A DNA stretch of 64,000 nucleotides from Streptomyces sp. NBC_01210 (GTDB taxonomy: Bacteria; Actinomycetota; Actinomycetes; Streptomycetales; Streptomycetaceae), in the NCBI RefSeq assembly GCF_036010325.1, contig NZ_CP108549.1, positions 3,348,001-3,412,000 of the forward strand, given 5' to 3'. Made by a program: the position numbers and the translations under genes. How positions within the stretch are numbered: the stretch's first letter is position 1; the number at the start of each line of letters is the position of its first letter. Of this stretch, positions 8,061 to 44,203 are shown piece after piece. The notes under the pieces were generated by a model. The model worked only from the letters and a program-made list of their open reading frames with translations. It did no database searches and was not told the DNA's origin.

Positions 8061-10352
8061 GTGGATACATCCCAGGTCGAGCTCACCATCGGCGGGATGA
8101 CCTGCGCCTCCTGCGCGGCTCGCGTCGAGAAGAAGCTGAACCGCATGGGTGGCGTCAGCGCCACCGTCAACTACGCGACCGAGAAGGCGAAGGTCTCCTA
8201 TCCGCACGAGATGGAAGTCGCCGATCTCATCGCCACCGTGGTGAAAACCGGCTACTCGGCCGCGCAGCCCCCGTCGCCCGCGCCCGCCCCGGGCCTCGCC
8301 GTGGACTCCGACCCGGACCTCGCCGTGGACTCCGACCCGGATCTCGTCGTGGACTCCGGCCCGGACCCCGCCGTGGCCTCCGAGGCGCGGCCCGACCCGG
8401 AGTCGGCCGCCCTCCGGCAGCGCCTGATCGTCTCCGCCGTGCTCGCGGCGCCGGTCGTCCTCATGGCGATGATCCCCGCCCTCCAGTTCGACAACTGGCA
8501 GTGGCTCTCGCTCACCCTCGCCGCCCCCGTCGTCATCTGGGGCGCACTGCCCTTCCACCGGGCCACCTGGACCAACCTCCGGCACGGCGCGGCCACCATG
8601 GACACCCTCGTCTCGGTCGGCACGCTCGCCGCCTTCGGCTGGTCGCTGTGGGCGCTCTTCCTCGGGGACGCGGGCATGCCCGCCATGCGCCACGGTTTCG
8701 ACCCCACGGTCACGCGTGCCGACGCCGCCTCGACGATCTATCTCGAGGTCGCCGCGGGCGTGGTGACCTTCATCCTGCTCGGCCGCTATCTGGAGGCGCG
8801 CTCCAAGCGGAAGGCGGGCGCTGCCCTGCGTGCCCTGCTGGAGCTGGGCGCCAAGGATGTCGCCGTACTGCGCGGCGGCACGGAGGTACGCGTTCCGATC
8901 GGCCGGCTCGCCGTCGGCGACCGCTTCGTCGTACGCCCCGGAGAGAAGATCGCCACCGACGGCAGCGTCGTCGAGGGCACCTCCGCCGTCGACGCCTCCA
9001 TGCTCACGGGCGAGTCCGTGCCGGTGGATGTGACCGCGGGGGACCCGGTCACCGGCGGCTGCGTCAACACCGCCGGCCGGCTCGTCGTCGAGGCCACCCG
9101 GATCGGCGCCGACACCCAGCTCGCCCGGATGGCCCGGCTGGTGGAGGACGCCCAGAACGGCAAGGCCGACGTGCAGCGCATCGCCGACCGGATCTCGGCC
9201 GTCTTCGTCCCTGTCGTACTGCTGATCGCGCTCGGCACGCTGGTGGCCTGGCTGCTCGCCACGGACGATGCGACCGCGGCCTTCACGGCCGCCGTCGCCG
9301 TACTGATCATCGCCTGCCCGTGCGCCCTGGGGCTTGCCACGCCGACCGCCCTCATGGTCGGTACGGGGCGCGGCGCCCAGCTCGGCATCCTGATCAAGGG
9401 CCCGGAGGTCCTGGAGTCCACCCGCAAGGTCGACACGGTCGTCCTGGACAAGACAGGGACGGTCACCACCGGCCGGATGCGCCTTCAGCGGGTGTACGTC
9501 GCCGAAACCGCCGAGGAGCATGACCTGCTGCGCTTCGCGGGCGCACTGGAGCACGCCTCGGAGCACCCCATCGCCCGCGCCGTCGCGGCGGGCGCCGAGG
9601 AGCGGGTCGGCACACTTCCCGCCGCCGAAAGCTTCGAGAACGTCCCAGGCCTCGGCGTACGCGGCGTCGTCGAAGGACACGAGGTGCTGGTCGGGCGAGC
9701 GCGGCTGCTCACGGAGGCGGGCGTTGAGCTGCCCGACGAGCTCGCCTCCGCCGCGACCGAAGGTCGTACGGAGATCTTCGCGGCCGTGGACGGCAAGGCG
9801 CTCGGCATGCTCACCGTCGCCGACGCGGTCAAGGACACCAGCGCCGAGGCGGTCGCACGGCTGCGGGCCCTCGGCCTCACCCCGGTGCTGCTGACCGGCG
9901 ACAACAAGGCGGTCGCCGAATCGGTCGCGGCCGAGATCGGCATCGACGAGGTGTACGCCGAGGTCATGCCCGAGGACAAGGTGGCCGTGGTCAAGCGTCT
10001 CCAGGCCGAGGGCCGCAGCGTCGCCATGGTCGGCGACGGCGTGAACGACGCCGCCGCGCTGGCCACCGCGGACCTGGGCCTGGCGATGGGCACGGGCACG
10101 GACGCGGCGATCGAGGCCGGCGATCTGACCCTCGTACGCGGAGACCTGAGGGTTGCAGCCGACGCGATCCGTCTCGCACGCCGGACACTGACCACCATCA
10201 AGGGCAATCTTTTCTGGGCCTTCGGTTACAACGTGGCCGCGCTGCCGCTGGCGGCATCAGGCCTGCTCAACCCCATGATCGCGGGATTTGCGATGGCCTT
10301 TTCATCCGTATTTGTGGTGACCAACAGCCTGCGGCTGCGCTCCTTCATGTGA
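8061..10352 (+). CDS. copA: Cu(I)-exporting P1B-type ATPase CopA
   Basis: A 763-residue copper pump starting at GTG. One metal-binding domain comes first (C15 and C18 in GMTCASCAAR). A Pro/Asp/Ala linker follows at about 75-115, with an eight-residue unit (LAVDSDPD) in three to four near copies. The membrane metal site is C419-P-C421, the phosphorylated aspartate is D463 in DKTGT, and the TGDN and GDGVNDAAALA nucleotide-domain motifs are present. It exports Cu(I) at the expense of ATP and follows copZ. Length is normal for a one-HMA CopA. The linker repeat is a recent in-frame 24-bp expansion and is probably neutral. Confidence 0.96.
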   Translation: MDTSQVELTIGGMTCASCAARVEKKLNRMGGVSATVNYATEKAKVSYPHEMEVADLIATVVKTGYSAAQPPSPAPAPGLAVDSDPDLAVDSDPDLVVDSGPDPAVASEARPDPESAALRQRLIVSAVLAAPVVLMAMIPALQFDNWQWLSLTLAAPVVIWGALPFHRATWTNLRHGAATMDTLVSVGTLAAFGWSLWALFLGDAGMPAMRHGFDPTVTRADAASTIYLEVAAGVVTFILLGRYLEARSKRKAGAALRALLELGAKDVAVLRGGTEVRVPIGRLAVGDRFVVRPGEKIATDGSVVEGTSAVDASMLTGESVPVDVTAGDPVTGGCVNTAGRLVVEATRIGADTQLARMARLVEDAQNGKADVQRIADRISAVFVPVVLLIALGTLVAWLLATDDATAAFTAAVAVLIIACPCALGLATPTALMVGTGRGAQLGILIKGPEVLESTRKVDTVVLDKTGTVTTGRMRLQRVYVAETAEEHDLLRFAGALEHASEHPIARAVAAGAEERVGTLPAAESFENVPGLGVRGVVEGHEVLVGRARLLTEAGVELPDELASAATEGRTEIFAAVDGKALGMLTVADAVKDTSAEAVARLRALGLTPVLLTGDNKAVAESVAAEIGIDEVYAEVMPEDKVAVVKRLQAEGRSVAMVGDGVNDAAALATADLGLAMGTGTDAAIEAGDLTLVRGDLRVAADAIRLARRTLTTIKGNLFWAFGYNVAALPLAASGLLNPMIAGFAMAFSSVFVVTNSLRLRSFM

Positions 10353-10752
10353 CTACAAGTAGGTCACAAGACCTTCACAAGGAGACCTAGATCACAGATA
10401 TTTAGGGGTAACCATTGCGACTCCTCGCGAGTCTAAGTGGGCGATGCCGAGAACGTCTTGGGGGACGTTCATGGGATGTCTTGGGGGACGTCCCAGGCAA
10501 GCGTTGGCCGGGGCACGTGCCCGGGGAGCTTTGAGCGGCCCTCCCGTGCGTACGTACCCCGGCAGACCGCGTGAGGAGCTTCTGCAACCAGCAGACGCCC
10601 GGCCGGATCCCGTGGGGGGAATCCGCTCCGGGGAAATGGGAAGCGCCCCGCCCGCCGACCCGTGGGGGGATCGGCAGCGGGGCGCTTTCCGCTTTCTGCG
10701 CCGGTTACGAGGCGCGGACGCGCACACGTACGGGTGTCAGCGAATACCGGTG
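10353..10752. other. Gene-free interval between copA and citA, candidate RNA region
   Basis: This 400-bp interval lacks a convincing coding gene. From 10370 to 10440 it is unusually AT-rich for this genome and promoter-like, with a GACTC-N5-GAGTC inverted repeat. A 14-bp direct repeat, GTCTTGGGGGACGT, occurs at 10455-10468 and 10478-10491. The interval ends in the strong hairpin at 10638-10690. A rightward transcript from about 10400 would end there, giving a candidate small RNA or leader of roughly 250 nt. An ATG at 10444 opens a long frame, but it runs on antisense through citA, so a small peptide is not supported. Confidence 0.4.
10638..10690. terminator. Bidirectional intrinsic terminator
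   Basis: AAGCGCCCCGC (10641-10651) pairs perfectly with GCGGGGCGCTT (10677-10687), extended outward by three weaker pairs. The loop contains a second small stem (GCCGA/TCGGC). Rightward it is followed by TTTCCGCTTTCTG; leftward by CCCATTTCCCC. It lies about 65 bp past the citA stop and can serve both citA and any rightward transcript from the copA side. Confidence 0.75.
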
Positions 10753-37107: not shown

Positions 37108-37853
37108 TCAGGCGTCCCGGCGGCGGAGCGACTGCCAGCCGGCCCACAGGGCCGCGGCGACCCAGAGCCCGAGGACGCCGAGCCCACTCCACGGGCCGAG
37201 CGTGCCGGTGGACTCCTGCAGCAGCACCTGCTGGCCCGCCCGGTCGGGCAGGAACTCGACGATGCCGCCGTCCTCCGAGATGTCCCCGAGCACGAACGAC
37301 AACATGAGCAGGAACGGGATGAGGATGCCCATGACCGCGGGCCCGCTGCGCAGCACTGCCGCGAGTCCGGCCGAGAACAGGGTGATCAACGCCAGATGGA
37401 TCCCGCAGCCGACAACGACACGCAGGGCGCCCGGGGCCCCGAGGCCCACGCCCCGGTCACCGAGGAACTCCTGGCCGGCCAGGAAGCAGGTCAGACTCGT
37501 CGCCAGTCCCACCAGGAGCGCCAGACCACCGATCACGGCGAGCTTGGCCGCGTAGAAGACACCTCTGCGCGGGACGGCCGCCAGCGAGATGCGGACGGCA
37601 CCGTTCTTGTACTCCCCCGAGACGGCCAGCGCTCCGAAGCAGATGGCCGCGACCTGGCCGAAGTTGAGGCCGAAGAACGAGGAGCGGAGCGGGTCGAAGT
37701 CGGGCTTGCCGGTCTCCTCGGTGCCGAGCGTCGCGCACATCAGCAGAGAGAAGGCAACGGTGGCGAGGAAGACGGACCCGAGCGTTGCGCCGAGGGAGCG
37801 TACGGAGCGGATCTTGAGCCACTCGGAGTGGACTACGGGCGTGATGGACACGG

Positions 37854-37857
<4 letters not shown>
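37108..37857 (-). CDS. ABC-2 type transporter permease
   Basis: A 249-residue membrane protein with six predicted helices and the N-terminal VHSEWLKIRSVRS motif typical of ABC-2 permeases of antibiotic, bacteriocin or lipid exporters. It follows the ATPase gene with a 4-bp overlap and ends alone. The partner ATPase at 37854-38712 has lost its N-terminus, so this permease may no longer work with it. The nearby response regulator suggests the set was once a two-component-controlled efflux module of the kind that answers cell-envelope stress or peptide antibiotics. Confidence 0.85.
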
Positions 37858-38703
<846 letters not shown>

Positions 38704-38712
<9 letters not shown>

Positions 38713-39303
38713 CGGATCGCCCGGGAGCTGCACGACTCGATCGGGCACGCACTGACGGTGGCGGTGGTGCAGGCGGGTGCGGCGAGGGCGGCGGGCAGCG
38801 CGGAGTTCACCGACCGGGCCCTGAACGCCATCGAGGAGACCGGCCGGGCGGCGCTGGAGGACCTGGAGCGCGTACTGCTCGTGCTGCGGGAGTCCGGACG
38901 GCCCGTGAGCCGGCGTCCGACGCTCACCGACGCGGACCGGTTGCTGGAGTCGGCGCGCTCCTCCGGCGCCACGGTCGACGCCGCGGTGACGGGCCCGGTG
39001 GAGCATGTGCCGGGTCCTGTTTCCCGGGAGGGCTACCGCATCGTGCAGGAGGCGCTGACCAATGTGCTGCGGCACGCGGGTGCGGTGACGACGCGCGTAC
39101 GGATCGCCGTCACCGACGGCCGGCTTGAGCTGGAGGTGACCAACCCCCTTTCGGGACAGGCCACTTCGACCGGCCGCGGCAGCGGCAGTGGGCTGCGGGG
39201 CATCCGGGAGCGGGCGGCGCTGCTCGGCGGGAAGGCCGACACCGGCCCGTACGACGGCGAATGGAGGGTGCACGTGGGGCTTCCGCTGGACGGCCTACGC
39301 TGA
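38704..39303 (+). pseudogene. NarL-type sensor histidine kinase, C-terminal half only
   Basis: The kinase frame begins at RNRIARELHDSIGHALTVAV, the H-box of HisKA_3 kinases (His codon 38731-38733), and carries a normal HATPase end: EALTNVLRHAG (N box) and GSGLRGIRERAALLGG (G box). The sensor and membrane half, about 180-200 residues in such kinases, is absent; the DNA before is antisense to the ABC ATPase. No start codon with a ribosome site is present at the junction. The stop lies 4 bp before the intact response regulator start. The result would be an unregulated, soluble catalytic core at best. Confidence 0.75.
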
Positions 39304-39307
39304 CCGG

Positions 39308-39958
39308 GTGCCGATCACTGTGCTGCTTGTCGACGACGAACCTCTCGTACGGGCGGGGCTGCGAGCCGTGCTCGAGGCCCAGCCGGACATCGAGGTGGTC
39401 GGCGAGGCGGCGGACGGCGCCGCGGTGATCCCCCTGGTTCGGCAACTGCGGCCCGATGTGGTGGCGATGGACGTCCGTATGCCGCTCCTTGACGGCATCG
39501 AGGCCACCCGCGCCGTACTGCGGACCGTCGACGACCCGCCCAAGATCCTGGTCATCACGACCTTCGAGAACGACGAGTACGTGTACGAGGCGCTGCGCGC
39601 GGGCGCGGACGGCTTTCTGCTCAAGCGGGCGCGCCCCGCGGAGATCGTGCACGCGGTGCGACTGGTCGCGGAGGGCGAGTCACTCCTCTTTCCCGCGGCG
39701 GTGCGCTCGCTGGCAGCGGAGTACGGCAGCCGGGCCGCCCGCGCGGCGATGGAGCGTGCGGCGCTGACCGAACGGGAGACGGCGGTACTGCGGCTGATGG
39801 CGCGGGGACTGTCGAATGCGGAGATCGCCACGCAGCTGGTCGTCGGCACGGAGACGGTCAAGTCGCATGTGAGCGCGGTGCTGTCGAAGCTGGGCGCGCG
39901 GGACCGCACGCAGGCGGTGATCGCGGCGTACGAGTCGGGGTTCGTGGCTCCCGCTTGA
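39308..39958 (+). CDS. NarL/FixJ-family response regulator
   Basis: A 216-residue two-domain regulator: receiver domain residues 1-120 (VLLVDDEPLVRAGLRAVLEA, phosphorylation Asp in DVVAMDVRMPLLDGIEA, Lys in DGFLLKRA) and a LuxR HTH (LTERETAVLRLMARGLSNAE, TETVKSHVSAVLSKLGARDR). It starts at GTG 39308, 4 bp after the kinase stop. The gene looks intact although its cognate kinase has lost the sensor half. Such kinase-regulator pairs usually control the neighbouring ABC-2 exporter, which in this strain is also damaged. Confidence 0.93.
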   Translation: MPITVLLVDDEPLVRAGLRAVLEAQPDIEVVGEAADGAAVIPLVRQLRPDVVAMDVRMPLLDGIEATRAVLRTVDDPPKILVITTFENDEYVYEALRAGADGFLLKRARPAEIVHAVRLVAEGESLLFPAAVRSLAAEYGSRAARAAMERAALTERETAVLRLMARGLSNAEIATQLVVGTETVKSHVSAVLSKLGARDRTQAVIAAYESGFVAPA

Positions 39959-40319
39959 GAGCGACTGTGACAGGCCCCGTTCCTCGCGGGAGGGCGGCGC
40001 CTCGAATGAAGGTGAGGCGCATCGCGCCCGCATCACAAGCTCCTGGGCGAAAACGGCTTCGAAGACTGATCGAGACTGTTCACGGTTCAACTGATCCTGG
40101 CCAAGTTGTGCCACAGGGCTCGACGCATCGCAGCAGACGGGGAGTCCGAAGTCTCGGATCCCCGTTCCTTGGTCACCCCATTCTTCACATCATCTCCTCG
40201 TGCACCGGCTGTGAGCGCTACGGTTCTTTGCGTAGCACCGAGTGCGAGCTACGTCACAGATCGACATGTTGCGGCTGCTGCGGCCTGCCCGGACGCGGCT
40301 GCACGTCTGGGGGAACGGC
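39959..40319. other. Upstream region of the TerD-nuclease gene
   Basis: This 361-bp stretch has lower GC than its surroundings (for example GATCGAGACTGTTCACGGTT) and no supported gene. It should hold the promoter of the TerD-nuclease gene; no convincing -10/-35 pair was identified. The frame of that gene stays open to ATGs at 40242 and 40266, but homology starts at 40320. Confidence 0.5.
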
Positions 40320-42368
40320 ATGCGCGAAATGGCCAAGGGTTCCAATGTCGGCCTGGCAGCCCTGAGCGATGACACCGGTTCGGTGATCGTGAGTCTGCGC
40401 TGGAGCAGCGCGGCGGGGGACGGCGACGCGGATGTGTCCGTGCTGCTGCTGGACGGCAACGGCAAGGTGCGCACCGACGCCGACTTCTTCTTCTACAACA
40501 ACCCCGCCGCAGCCGACGGCAGTGTGCAGTTGTTGGGCAAGACACCGACCGACAGTGGCAGCGAAGACCGCATCAGCCTCGATCTGACCGCAGTTCCCCG
40601 GGATGTTGAACGCATCGTTGTGGCAGCCAGTCGGTACGGCGGTTCCTGCTTCGGTGAACTGGACGACCTTCGGGTGACGCTCGCCGATCGTAGTGGCGAG
40701 GCTCTGCTCGGATTCTCCATCACCGACGCCGGCGTCGAGAGTGCGTTCATCTTCAGTGAGCTGTACCGGCGGGGCGAGGAGTGGAAGTTCCGGGCAGTCG
40801 GCCAGGGCTACGAGACCGGTCTGGCCGGTCTGGCAACGGACTTCGGCATCGATATCGATGCCGAGGGCGAGGACGAGGGCGACGCCGTAGAGGTACCTGC
40901 GGTGGAGCAGGTACCGAAGGCCGATGAGCCTCGGCCACCGGCCGTCGAGTCACCGGCGGCGTTCCCCACGGAGGCAGCAAGCGGAGCGCAGCCGGTCGGA
41001 GTTGAGCCGACGCCAAAGCGCGTCCCCGGCCCTCGCACCGCCAAGAAGAAGGTCACGCTGCCCAAGGTGGCCAAGAAATCCCTCGCCGAGAACGACTCGT
41101 GGAGGCCTGCCAGGCTCTTCCCCGCGCCGTCGCTCAAAAGCGACAAGGAGCGCGAGCTGCGGGCCACTTCCGTTCTGCTGTCAGTGATGGCCGAAGTGCC
41201 TGAGTTGGGGCGTCGGCTCACCGCTGCTTTCGGCGCACCGGCCGGCCGTATGCAGTCCTTCACCGAGGTCACGCTGCCGCACGGAGATACCCCCAAGCGA
41301 CCGGACGGTGTGATCCGCGTAGAGCGCGCAGGCAAGTTGTGGACCGCTCTGGTCGAGACGAAGACCAATGGGAATCCGCTCAAGTCCGATCAGGTCCAGA
41401 ACTACATGGACATTGCCGCCCGCCGCGGATACGAGGCCGTCATCACGCTCTCCAACGACGTGGCCCTGGAAGGCAGTCCACTGGTGGACGTCAGAACCGA
41501 TGGGCGGCGCAAGCACAAGGTCGCCCTCTGGCATCTGTCCTGGGCCGAAGTGGCCCACCAGGCACAGATGCTGATCCGCCATGAGGGCGTCGGCAATGCC
41601 GCCCATGCGTGGCTCCTGCAGGAGTTGCTGCACTACCTTCAGCACGAGAATTCCGGCTGCCACGGCTTCCAGAACATGGGACCGGCCTGGGTGCCCGTAC
41701 GAAACGGCATCGATGCGGAGACCCTTTGCCAGGGCGACCATCGTGCCGTTGAGGTCGTCGAGAGCTGGGAACGGCTCATCCGCCAGGTCTGCCTCCGCCT
41801 CGGCGGCGAACTCGGCCAGAAGGCATTGCCGGTACAGCGCGCCAAGCGCGGCACCGATCCGCACTCCCGGCGCGCCGTACTCGCCGACCGGCTGTGCGAC
41901 GAAGGCCGCCTGACCGCTGAGCTGCGCATCGACGGTACGCCAGGCGTTCTCGCGATCACGGCCGATCTGCGGACCGCCAGACTGCGCACATCCATCGAAA
42001 TCCAGGCCCCGGACGGGAGTTACCCCCTCACCTCGGCCAAGCGCCTGATCCGGCTGCTGGCCGAGGCGCCCGCGGACCTCCATGTCGAGACTCTTGTCGA
42101 GGGCGGCAACGGTCCACGCGGCACCCTGGAACGGCTACGGCCCGAGCCGGCCGACATGCTGCCCAAGGACGGCGCACGGATGACCGGTTTCCGGCTGTCG
42201 TTGTTCAAGGGCATGGGTGCCACTCGTGGCAGCGCCGAATCCGGATTCATCCGCAGCGTCGACGAGTCTGTGGACCGGTTCTACGCGAGCGTCGTGGCAC
42301 AGCTGATCTCCTTCGAACGGCGTCAGGTAAGCCGCTCACAGCCCGTGGAACCGGCTGCCGTCGGCTGA
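40320..42368 (+). CDS. TerD domain fused to predicted PD-(D/E)XK nuclease
   Basis: A 682-residue protein. Residues 1-170 are a TerD/TerZ domain (MAKGSNVGLAALSD, then VSVLLLDGNGKVRTDADFFF followed by YNNP, LDLTAVPRDVERIVVAAS), a Ca2+-binding stress domain. Residues 175-270 are a charged Pro/Ala linker ending in a Lys-rich stretch. Residues 280-440 match a PD-(D/E)XK nuclease: P328-D329-G, then W341-TALV-E346-T-K348, then a helix QVQNYMDIAARRGYEAVITL. The C-terminal 240 residues are unrecognised. ATG 40320 follows GGGGGA by a few bases. It stands alone, with flanking genes unrelated. Role in DNA damage, stress or phage defence is inferred, not shown. Confidence 0.82.
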   Translation: MREMAKGSNVGLAALSDDTGSVIVSLRWSSAAGDGDADVSVLLLDGNGKVRTDADFFFYNNPAAADGSVQLLGKTPTDSGSEDRISLDLTAVPRDVERIVVAASRYGGSCFGELDDLRVTLADRSGEALLGFSITDAGVESAFIFSELYRRGEEWKFRAVGQGYETGLAGLATDFGIDIDAEGEDEGDAVEVPAVEQVPKADEPRPPAVESPAAFPTEAASGAQPVGVEPTPKRVPGPRTAKKKVTLPKVAKKSLAENDSWRPARLFPAPSLKSDKERELRATSVLLSVMAEVPELGRRLTAAFGAPAGRMQSFTEVTLPHGDTPKRPDGVIRVERAGKLWTALVETKTNGNPLKSDQVQNYMDIAARRGYEAVITLSNDVALEGSPLVDVRTDGRRKHKVALWHLSWAEVAHQAQMLIRHEGVGNAAHAWLLQELLHYLQHENSGCHGFQNMGPAWVPVRNGIDAETLCQGDHRAVEVVESWERLIRQVCLRLGGELGQKALPVQRAKRGTDPHSRRAVLADRLCDEGRLTAELRIDGTPGVLAITADLRTARLRTSIEIQAPDGSYPLTSAKRLIRLLAEAPADLHVETLVEGGNGPRGTLERLRPEPADMLPKDGARMTGFRLSLFKGMGATRGSAESGFIRSVDESVDRFYASVVAQLISFERRQVSRSQPVEPAAVG

Positions 42369-42520: not shown

Positions 42521-44203
42521 TCAGAGGTGCGTCGGGGCGAACATGCGGAGGAGCGCCGGGAGTACGACCACCGAAGGGCCGGGCTCCGCGAAGGACTTGG
42601 CCAGGTCCTCGCTCAGCGACTCCGGAGTCGTACGGACCGCCGGGACCCCGAAGGACTCCGCCAGTGCCACGAAGTCCGGGCGGGACAGCTCCGTCGCCGT
42701 CGCCTCGCCGAACGCGTCCTCCATGTACTCGCGCAGGATGCCGTAACCGCCGTCGTCCACGATCAGCCAGGTGACCGGGAGGTCGTACTGGCGAGCCGTC
42801 GCCAGCTCCGCGATCGAGTACATCGCGCCGCCGTCGCCGGAGACCGCGAGGACCGGACGAGTACGGTCCGCCGCCGCCGCGCCCAGCGCCGCCGGGAAGC
42901 CGTAGCCGAGGCCGCCCGCGCCCTGGGCCGAGTGCATGGTGTTCGGGTGGCGGGCGTCGAAGGCCGACCAGGCCCAGTAGGCCAGGATCGTCATGTCCCA
43001 GAAGCTCGGGGACATGTCCGGCAGGGCCTCGCGGACGGAAGCCAGCACCTGCTGTTCCAGGGTGAGGTCCTGGGCCGCTATGCGGGCCCGGACCTGGGTC
43101 AGGACCGTGCGTACGGACTCGGCCGCGGCCGGGTCCTCGCGCTCCTCCACCGTCTCCAGCAGCGCCGACAGCGCGAGGCGCGCGTCCGCGTGGATGCCGA
43201 GGCCCGCGTGGTTGGACTCCAGCTTGCCGGCGTCCGCCTCGATCTGGACGACCCGGCCGCGCGGCGCGAACGTGTGGTAGTTCGAGGACAGTTCGCCAAG
43301 GCCGGAGCCGACCACGAGCAGGACGTCCGCGGATTCGAGGAAGTCCGTGGTGTGGCGGTCCTCCAGCCAGGACTGGAGCGAGAGCGGGTGCTCCCAGGGG
43401 AAGGCGCCCTTGCCGCCGAAGGTGGTGACGACCGGCGCGTCGATCTTCTCCGCGAGGGCGAGCAGCTTGCCGCACGCGTCGGAGCGGACGACTCCGCCGC
43501 CCGCGATGATCGCGGGACGGGATGCGGTGGACAGCAAGTGCGCCGCCACAGCCGTCAGTTCGGGGCGCGGCACGACCTCCTGCGGCGTGGCGTCCATGGC
43601 CGTGACGACCGGCAGCGTCGTCTCGGCCAGCAGCACATCCTGCGGGATTTCGACCCAGACCGGGCCGTGCGGGGCGGTCAGCGCCGACTGCCAGGCCGCG
43701 GCGATCGCGGACGGTATCTGCGAGGCCGTACGAACGGTGTGCACGGACTTCACGATGTCGCGGAACGACGCCTGCTGGTCGCGCAGTTCGTGCAGATAGC
43801 CGTGGCGGCCGCCGCCGAGACCGGGCGTCGGGACCTGGCTGCCGATGGCGAGCACCGGCGCCGAGGCCGCGGCCGCCTCCTGGAGCGCGGCCAGGGACAT
43901 CAGCGCGCCGGGGCCGGTCGAGAGCAGCAGCGGGGCCACCTCGCCGGTGACCCGGCCGTACGCGTCGGCGGCGAAGCCCGCGTTGTTCTCGACGCGCAGC
44001 CCGACGTACTCCAGCTGCGAGCGGCGCAGCGCGTCGAACATGCCGAGCGCGTGCTGTCCCGGCAGGCCGAAGACCGTGGTCGCGCCCAGGCCCTGCAGGG
44101 ATTCGACAACGAGGTCGCCGCCGTTGCGGCCGGGCGGCGGGTTCAGCGCGGCCGCGGTCTGAGCCTCGGTGGGGCGCAGTACCAGGTCGTGATCGTGCGT
44201 CAC
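42521..44203 (-). CDS. Thiamine pyrophosphate-dependent decarboxylase (AHAS/AruI-like)
   Basis: A 560-residue TPP enzyme with the three-domain acetolactate-synthase fold. The cofactor-activating Glu is in [18 protein letters not shown]; the Mg-TPP motif runs from [20 protein letters not shown] to [14 protein letters not shown], with Asp-Asp in place of the usual Asn-Asn. It overlaps the end of the agmatinase-family gene by 4 bp, so it is made with a guanidino hydrolase and lies beside a symporter. A 2-ketoarginine decarboxylase role, as for AruI of the arginine transaminase pathway, fits this context better than branched-chain amino acid synthesis. No small subunit gene follows. Substrate inferred. 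Confidence 0.85.

Follow-up and report, generated by a model that had tools for sequence, protein, structure and literature searches.

In a stretch of 64,000 nucleotides from Streptomyces sp. NBC_01210 (contig NZ_CP108549.1, positions 3,348,001 to 3,412,000; hereafter the window, with positions counted from its first base), we found a gene whose 682-residue product joins a TerD domain and a predicted PD-(D/E)XK nuclease in a single chain. Among the genomes examined, the fused form of this protein is restricted to those that bear a Ter gene set. We propose, with a probability of about 0.5, that it is a Ter-gated DNA-cutting effector, switched on when its TerD domain senses a Ter signal, a reading that fits the joining of TerD to a predicted nuclease and the confinement of the fused form to genomes with the Ter lyase. 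For Ter systems it has long been asked what they sense, which compounds their metabolite enzymes produce and how the signal acts. A protein that ties TerD to a predicted nuclease, and only in genomes with the Ter lyase, would provide a measurable output, DNA cleavage, for tracing the Ter signal, and the stand-alone module of Ter-less relatives would be a natural control.

A conserved nuclease module fused to TerD

The open reading frame (ORF) at 40320-42368 on the forward strand contains no internal stop. Its reading, the Pfam match and the residues at the expected positions bore out the initial annotation, which had described one chain with TerD, Asp329 and Glu346-x-Lys348. The TerD model PF02342 matches residues 3-175 with 159.2 bits (cut-off 25.3; profile positions 4-187 of 187), and the domain aligns over nearly its full length to the solved TerD proteins 3ibz and 2kxt (Table 1). 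Residues D36, D38, E82 and D83 of this domain are invariant in 32 orthologues and align with acidic residues of both structures; as putative ligands they could bind Ca2+. Models other than TerD in Pfam, NCBIfam and PADLOC gave no match to the 682-residue protein at E <= 1, and none of their models covers residues ~257-669, which form one conserved unit (hereafter the module).

Residues D329, E346, K348, Q358 and Y362 are invariant in 124/124 aligned modules, which share 33-86% identity with that of the window. The Asp, Glu and Lys are also invariant in the 32 Streptomyces orthologues, in 63/63 sequences of a further set and in 25/25 modules including the one in the window (37-81% identity). 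Being invariant across all four alignments, the motif is not there by chance, and the conservation on which the initial annotation had staked its nuclease held even outside the class (124/124). Ratios of nonsynonymous to synonymous substitution rates (dN/dS), computed like the linker identity on the 63-sequence set, indicate strong purifying selection on residues 257-440 (0.07, the lowest in the protein) and purifying selection on the TerD domain (0.19).

An AlphaFold2 model of the module, built from a deep alignment, reached a predicted local distance difference test score (pLDDT) of 92.5 and displays a PD-(D/E)XK-like core. The predicted order is alpha-beta3-alpha-beta, in which strand two bears the Asp and strand three the ExK, and structural neighbours agree with this predicted fold. 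The module model and its structural matches support the restriction-endonuclease (PD-(D/E)XK) fold that had been suggested for this region, which we regard as a prediction. The module-only model replaced a full-length AlphaFold2 model from 32 close orthologues, rejected with a mean pLDDT of 60 and much of the nuclease region below 50. Searches of PDB sequences with module profiles returned spurious matches or none, BFVD gave no matches at E <= 1e-3, and the weak Pfam matches include two unrelated ones (0.26 and 0.31).

For the tail of 240 residues that had been left unrecognised in the initial annotation, structural comparison of the predicted model suggests a tentative fold: the domain behind the nuclease core resembles YbjN and type III chaperones. 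No sequence-profile match to the YbjN family was obtained, the Pfam search, which presumably includes a YbjN model, having returned TerD alone.

Among the genomes examined, the fused form is restricted to those with Ter genes

The 42 fused carriers (26 in family f4, five in f18, two in f26 and nine Streptomyces) have 6-20 TerD matches each, the fusion counted; among the 48 stand-alone carriers TerD is matched only in G136, once, and in none of the other 47. Since the fused gene itself counts as one TerD, we used the C-C bond lyase PF15617 as an independent Ter marker. This lyase was detected in 42/42 fused carriers (E 1.3e-125 to 9.5e-101, 337-420 bits), while matches in the stand-alone carriers (n = 48) reached at most 61 bits (E 9.9e-17). 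In 28/48 stand-alone carriers weak matches exceeded the Pfam cut-off of 28.4 bits, and the same search gave matches in 6/14 control genomes, four of them above the cut-off; the weak matches, not checked one by one, are read as probable related aldolases. The 9.2 Mb genome of the window itself has 14 TerD matches, the fusion gene counted, and the lyase (E 1.3e-121).

Within Streptomyces, Ter genes were searched in the nine fused carriers and not in the remaining carriers of a 150-genome sample. Neither group includes twelve carriers whose modules are broken or partial. Five of them, from Ter-rich families (G132, G982, G1022, G261 and G277), have 6-15 TerD matches each, and a strong lyase was found in G132, G982 and G1022, the only ones of the five searched for it; TerD and a strong lyase are both absent from the other seven (G799, G805, G812, G878, G311, G374 and G611). 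Two families contain both forms of the module. The two fused genomes of f26 have 9 and 7 TerD matches, compared with none in the 20 stand-alone carriers examined from that family, bar one with a single match, and in f4 one stand-alone carrier, Ter-negative, stands against 26 fused. Among module-free controls TerD was present in 8/15 genomes of f4 and 0/11 of f26. The occurrence of the fused form solely in genomes with the Ter gene set points to dependence on the Ter system and leaves the earlier description of the effector as self-contained unsupported.

The gene of the window is nevertheless not part of a Ter operon, as ~490 kb separate it from the nearest other TerD, and adjacency to Ter genes is rare elsewhere: DUF475 is present in the 1.5-kb flanks of 1/26 f4 loci and a second TerD within ~10 kb at 2/85 Streptomycetaceae-type loci. 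In ten further f4 genomes, nine of which belong to three related genera, TerD genes lie within ~20 kb on the same contig (by eye, among the matches listed). In one genome (G1000, locus L236 2007-16012) the fusion is encoded on one strand with terD and DUF475/TerC and comes immediately after them. The Ter operon at L236 reads TerD, StiP-PELOTA, PRTase_2-TRSP, C-C lyase, TerD, DUF475 and then the TerD-nuclease fusion.

Distribution of the module and origin of the fusion

The module was present in 42/296 genomes of a class sample, 20/396 of a phylum sample, 26/120 of family f26 and 29/151 of family f4. In Streptomyces, 52/150 genomes carry it, 43 in one piece and nine split or partial (TerD unchecked for each). 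Beyond the fused lineage the module occurs as an independent gene of ~450-520 amino acids, to which the listings assign no Pfam domain and the name 'hypothetical protein' or 'stress response protein'. Among the top 120 matches of each of two sets (3904 and 939), it was seen in Jiangella, Cellulomonas, Nocardioides, Beutenbergia, Micromonospora, Euzebya and other genera. Two stand-alone modules (P0316 and P0337) come from records whose labels read Lentisphaerae and soil metagenome 'DEI2'; these may reflect spread past Actinomycetota or misbinned contigs.

Architectures were taken from the loci of 102 full-length rows, of which 53 are fused and 49 stand-alone; partial rows were set aside, and 99 remained once identical ones had been removed. 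Two sequences with no locus (G244 and G226) were classed as stand-alone since they are without TerD, and a damaged module (G531) and a fusion whose frame is broken near its end (G976) were counted with their own groups and kept outside the tree. In this tree, made by a quick method, the fused rows form one clade with a support of 98 (Shimodaira-Hasegawa-like approximate likelihood ratio test, SH-aLRT), and the fusion seems to have arisen once.

The sole exception inside the clade is L106 of Actinacidiphila epipremni (8500-10400), in which the TerD half is gone and, in the three frames read, an unrelated, interrupted sequence precedes the linker. We therefore rejected it as a stand-alone Streptomycetaceae copy and took it as a damaged fusion. 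G078 and G146, guessed from their families to be stand-alone, were likewise rejected as such, their loci showing fusions.

Mobility and neighboring genes

Eleven of 72,556 plasmid records carry the gene (six Streptomyces, five Rhodococcus), and ten of these regions were examined, one unannotated region being left aside. Genes of a cyclic oligonucleotide-based antiphage signaling system (CBASS) stand beside the fusion in 3/10 regions, all from Rhodococcus and two of the three near-identical; the set comprises a cGAS/DncV-like nucleotidyltransferase (CD-NTase), E1-E2 and a NucC-like gene, and where a JAB gene has been annotated it lies between them. Three plasmid regions have an annotated RES-domain gene close to the fusion. 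No match was found in 50,697 phage records, and IMG/VR gave one partial relative. No conserved neighbours emerged in Streptomycetaceae-type loci, where the top neighbour cluster, determined with a crude ORF caller, occurred in 11/86, and an operon partner was rejected on this ground. At the window locus, inspection by eye of the ORFs within 36-47 kb, where no model search was made, showed no CD-NTase. Qualitatively, the context resembles that of an accessory defense or conflict gene. The initial annotation had suggested a stress- or phage-responsive effector; the sole hints of a response to phage are the mobility of the gene and the CBASS or RES-domain neighbours on a few plasmids.

The CBASS operons lie at 810-4664 of L174 and ~10300-14160 of L168 and L173, and include CD-NTase, E1-E2, JAB and a DUF6602 gene matching NucC models. 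Just upstream of the fusion on L174 (4718-7053) and L169 (4668-7006) there are two hypothetical genes on the same strand, 86-87% alike between the plasmids; PADLOC models for LeoA and BnzB match them weakly.

Comparison with known systems

The fusion shares with Ter systems (TerD, TerC/DUF475, PRTase_2, C-C bond lyase, StiP) its TerD domain, its co-occurrence with Ter genes and the one case within a Ter operon. It differs from them in usually lying away from the Ter locus and in joining TerD and a nuclease in one chain, an arrangement not named in the passages of Ter papers that we compared. Literature titles and starts of abstracts, with passages of a few papers, yielded no such single-chain fusion; most subscription papers were outside this search, and the Ter analysis by Anantharaman, Iyer and Aravind (2012), whose title includes DNA-processing, may describe one.

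With members of the PD-(D/E)XK superfamily (EcoT38I, AspBHI, FokI, 1y88/AF1548, VRR_NUC, Tox-REase-7) the module has in common the predicted core topology, the D...ExK motif and the Q and Y of the next helix. Unlike the described families, however, it falls below the cut-off of every family model and has its own flanking helical region and a YbjN-like C-terminal domain, whose predicted fold tentatively recalls YbjN/AmyR and class I type III chaperones. Unlike Shedu (SduA), the fusion has TerD and not the Shedu clamp as its N-terminal part, and searching it with the defense models of PADLOC-DB, which we take to include Shedu models, gave 0 families at E <= 1. The Card1/Can2/Cdn1-type nucleases have a CARF domain where the fusion has TerD. 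In contrast to these and to NucC, which are signal-gated in type III CRISPR and CBASS, the fusion has TerD as its putative sensor, and inspection of the window locus by eye revealed no cyclase.

Proposed role and alternative explanations

As a Ter-gated effector, the predicted nuclease module would cut DNA using metal ions, and TerD and/or the C-terminal domain would hold it off in resting cells. The nuclease would be freed when TerD binds either Ca2+ or a Ter product, for which a nucleoside-like compound made by the C-C lyase/PRTase operon has been proposed, and its cut would harm invading DNA, from phages or plasmids, or host DNA that has been damaged. Ca2+ is as plausible a signal as a Ter nucleotide, and the stand-alone module of actinobacteria without Ter would be under some other control. 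Passages of published work provide a background for such a role. They describe Ter systems as making a nucleoside or nucleotide derivative as a threat signal, which TerB and TerD may sense (PMC7824862), suggest that TerD might recognise nucleotide derivatives (PMC7159879), present Shedu as a regulated single-chain PD-(D/E)XK nuclease able to defend the cell (PMC12904381), and place a TerD-dependent anti-phage system and a McrBC-like restriction system as neighbours (PMC3710099). Two points qualify this reading: the association comes from few independent contrasts, within f26 and within f4, and function and ancestry are hard to separate because the fusion appears to have a single origin. A broader version is tentative and in our view doubtful. 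The Ter operon would make a nucleoside-like second messenger, TerD domains would be its receptors and the fusion a dedicated DNA-cutting effector, in a signal-gated immunity or stress-suicide branch parallel to CBASS-NucC and type III CRISPR Card1/Can2, which would spread as an orphan gene since the conserved Ter operon elsewhere makes the signal.

The correlation with Ter might instead be a phylogenetic accident, if a single lineage acquired TerD in an ancestor that had Ter genes, and the two were then passed on or transferred jointly without functional coupling. The single fused clade, with its one secondary exception, agrees with this, and families f1, f4 and f18, to which nearly all fused genes seen belong, are Ter-rich, though not uniformly so, as the module-free f4 genomes show. 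Yet the gene is mobile, occurring on plasmids and without synteny, and is still found solely in Ter genomes; together with the contrast between the fused pair and the stand-alone carriers of f26 and the purifying selection on TerD, this makes an accident unlikely. We also think it rather unlikely that the protein is a Shedu-like single-gene defense nuclease, whose module would itself recognise foreign or linear DNA, with TerD just for docking or oligomerisation and the Ter system unneeded. The confinement of the fused form to Ter genomes argues against it, as does the lack of PADLOC matches, of a consistent neighbour of any kind in Streptomyces and of matches in phage records.

A nuclease for DNA repair or stress processing would trim damaged ends under oxidative or metal stress, attached through its YbjN-like domain to a repair protein or one that binds single strands, with TerD sensing Ca2+. 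The near full-length alignment with solved TerD proteins, the four invariant acidic residues and the tentative C-terminal fold are in line with this, and the YbjN-like protein DR1245 of Deinococcus radiodurans is reported as a partner of the SSB-like DdrB (PMC3575483). We nevertheless consider this explanation improbable, as only a third of the sampled Streptomyces have the gene, sometimes decayed, unlike a core repair gene, and it has no conserved neighbour. The module might also be catalytically inactive, or act on RNA, and serve as a nucleic-acid-binding scaffold. Its nuclease activity is a prediction, and a passage of PMC11090510 mentions an inactivated, potentially nucleic-acid-binding PD-(D/E)xK fold in another system, but the invariance of the full D...ExK motif with Q and Y in 124/124 modules and the lowest dN/dS of the protein make this very unlikely. 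Ter gating remains the reading that we prefer.

Gene start and local setting

Table 1. Features of the TerD-nuclease fusion gene in the window.
Feature	Position	Strand	Basis
TerD-nuclease fusion gene, 682 aa, ATG start	40320..42368	+	ORF reading and orthologues
TerD domain, residues 3-175	40326..40844	+	PF02342 E 1e-46; 3ibz E 3.4e-37, 2kxt E 8.8e-34
Variable linker, residues 181-252	40860..41075	+	median identity 38%, dN/dS 0.51; pLDDT <50
Predicted PD-(D/E)XK nuclease domain, residues 266-439	41115..41636	+	model mc5f20b8558c4, structural matches, dN/dS 0.07
D329, predicted catalytic Asp	41304..41306	+	invariant 124/124
E346-T-K348, predicted catalytic Glu and Lys	41355..41363	+	E and K invariant 124/124
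Q358-x3-Y362, helix after ExK strand	41391..41405	+	invariant 124/124; helix in model
C-terminal YbjN/type-III-chaperone-like domain, residues 479-669, tentative fold	41754..42326	+	
TGGGGG, likely ribosome-binding site	40308..40313	+	just before ATG 40320; hexamer in 53/63 upstream regions
TTCACA ... CTACGGT, promoter-like element, a few close relatives	40184..40224	+	6/63 upstream regions

An alternative GTG start at 40242 would give 708 amino acids, but the ATG has shortly ahead of it TGGGGG, a hexamer found somewhere within 250 bases upstream in the sequences counted in Table 1, the window included. The promoter-like element TTCAC(A/C)...CTACGGT has a constant length of 41 bases in its six carriers (window included), one of which reads TTCACC, and with so few occurrences we rejected it as a promoter motif common to the whole family.

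The GC content upstream of the gene (40000-40299) is 0.61, compared with 0.70-0.75 over 38500-39999 and 0.71-0.74 past 42400, in agreement with the lower value noted in the initial annotation; that of the gene itself is 0.63-0.70. Upstream, a response-regulator ORF stops at 39958; downstream, a convergent ORF ends at 42521, so the gene fits the description 'monocistronic'. The damaged two-component locus reported next door also fits the ORF translations, judged by eye. Within 37108-39958 an ABC transporter ATPase (reverse strand) and a histidine kinase (forward strand) seem to abut head to head at ~38.7 kb, both without a start, the ORF in the kinase frame opening with ATPase antisense and vice versa. 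A deletion has probably brought the two together at this point; the response regulator that follows seems intact.

Orthologues of the fusion protein in Streptomyces are up to 94% identical to it, and the fusion proteins are mostly deposited under the name 'TerD family protein'. Two further long TerD frames, of 679 and 648 amino acids, occur in the same genome (G000:C1:6176688 and 1943946; L010 and L011).
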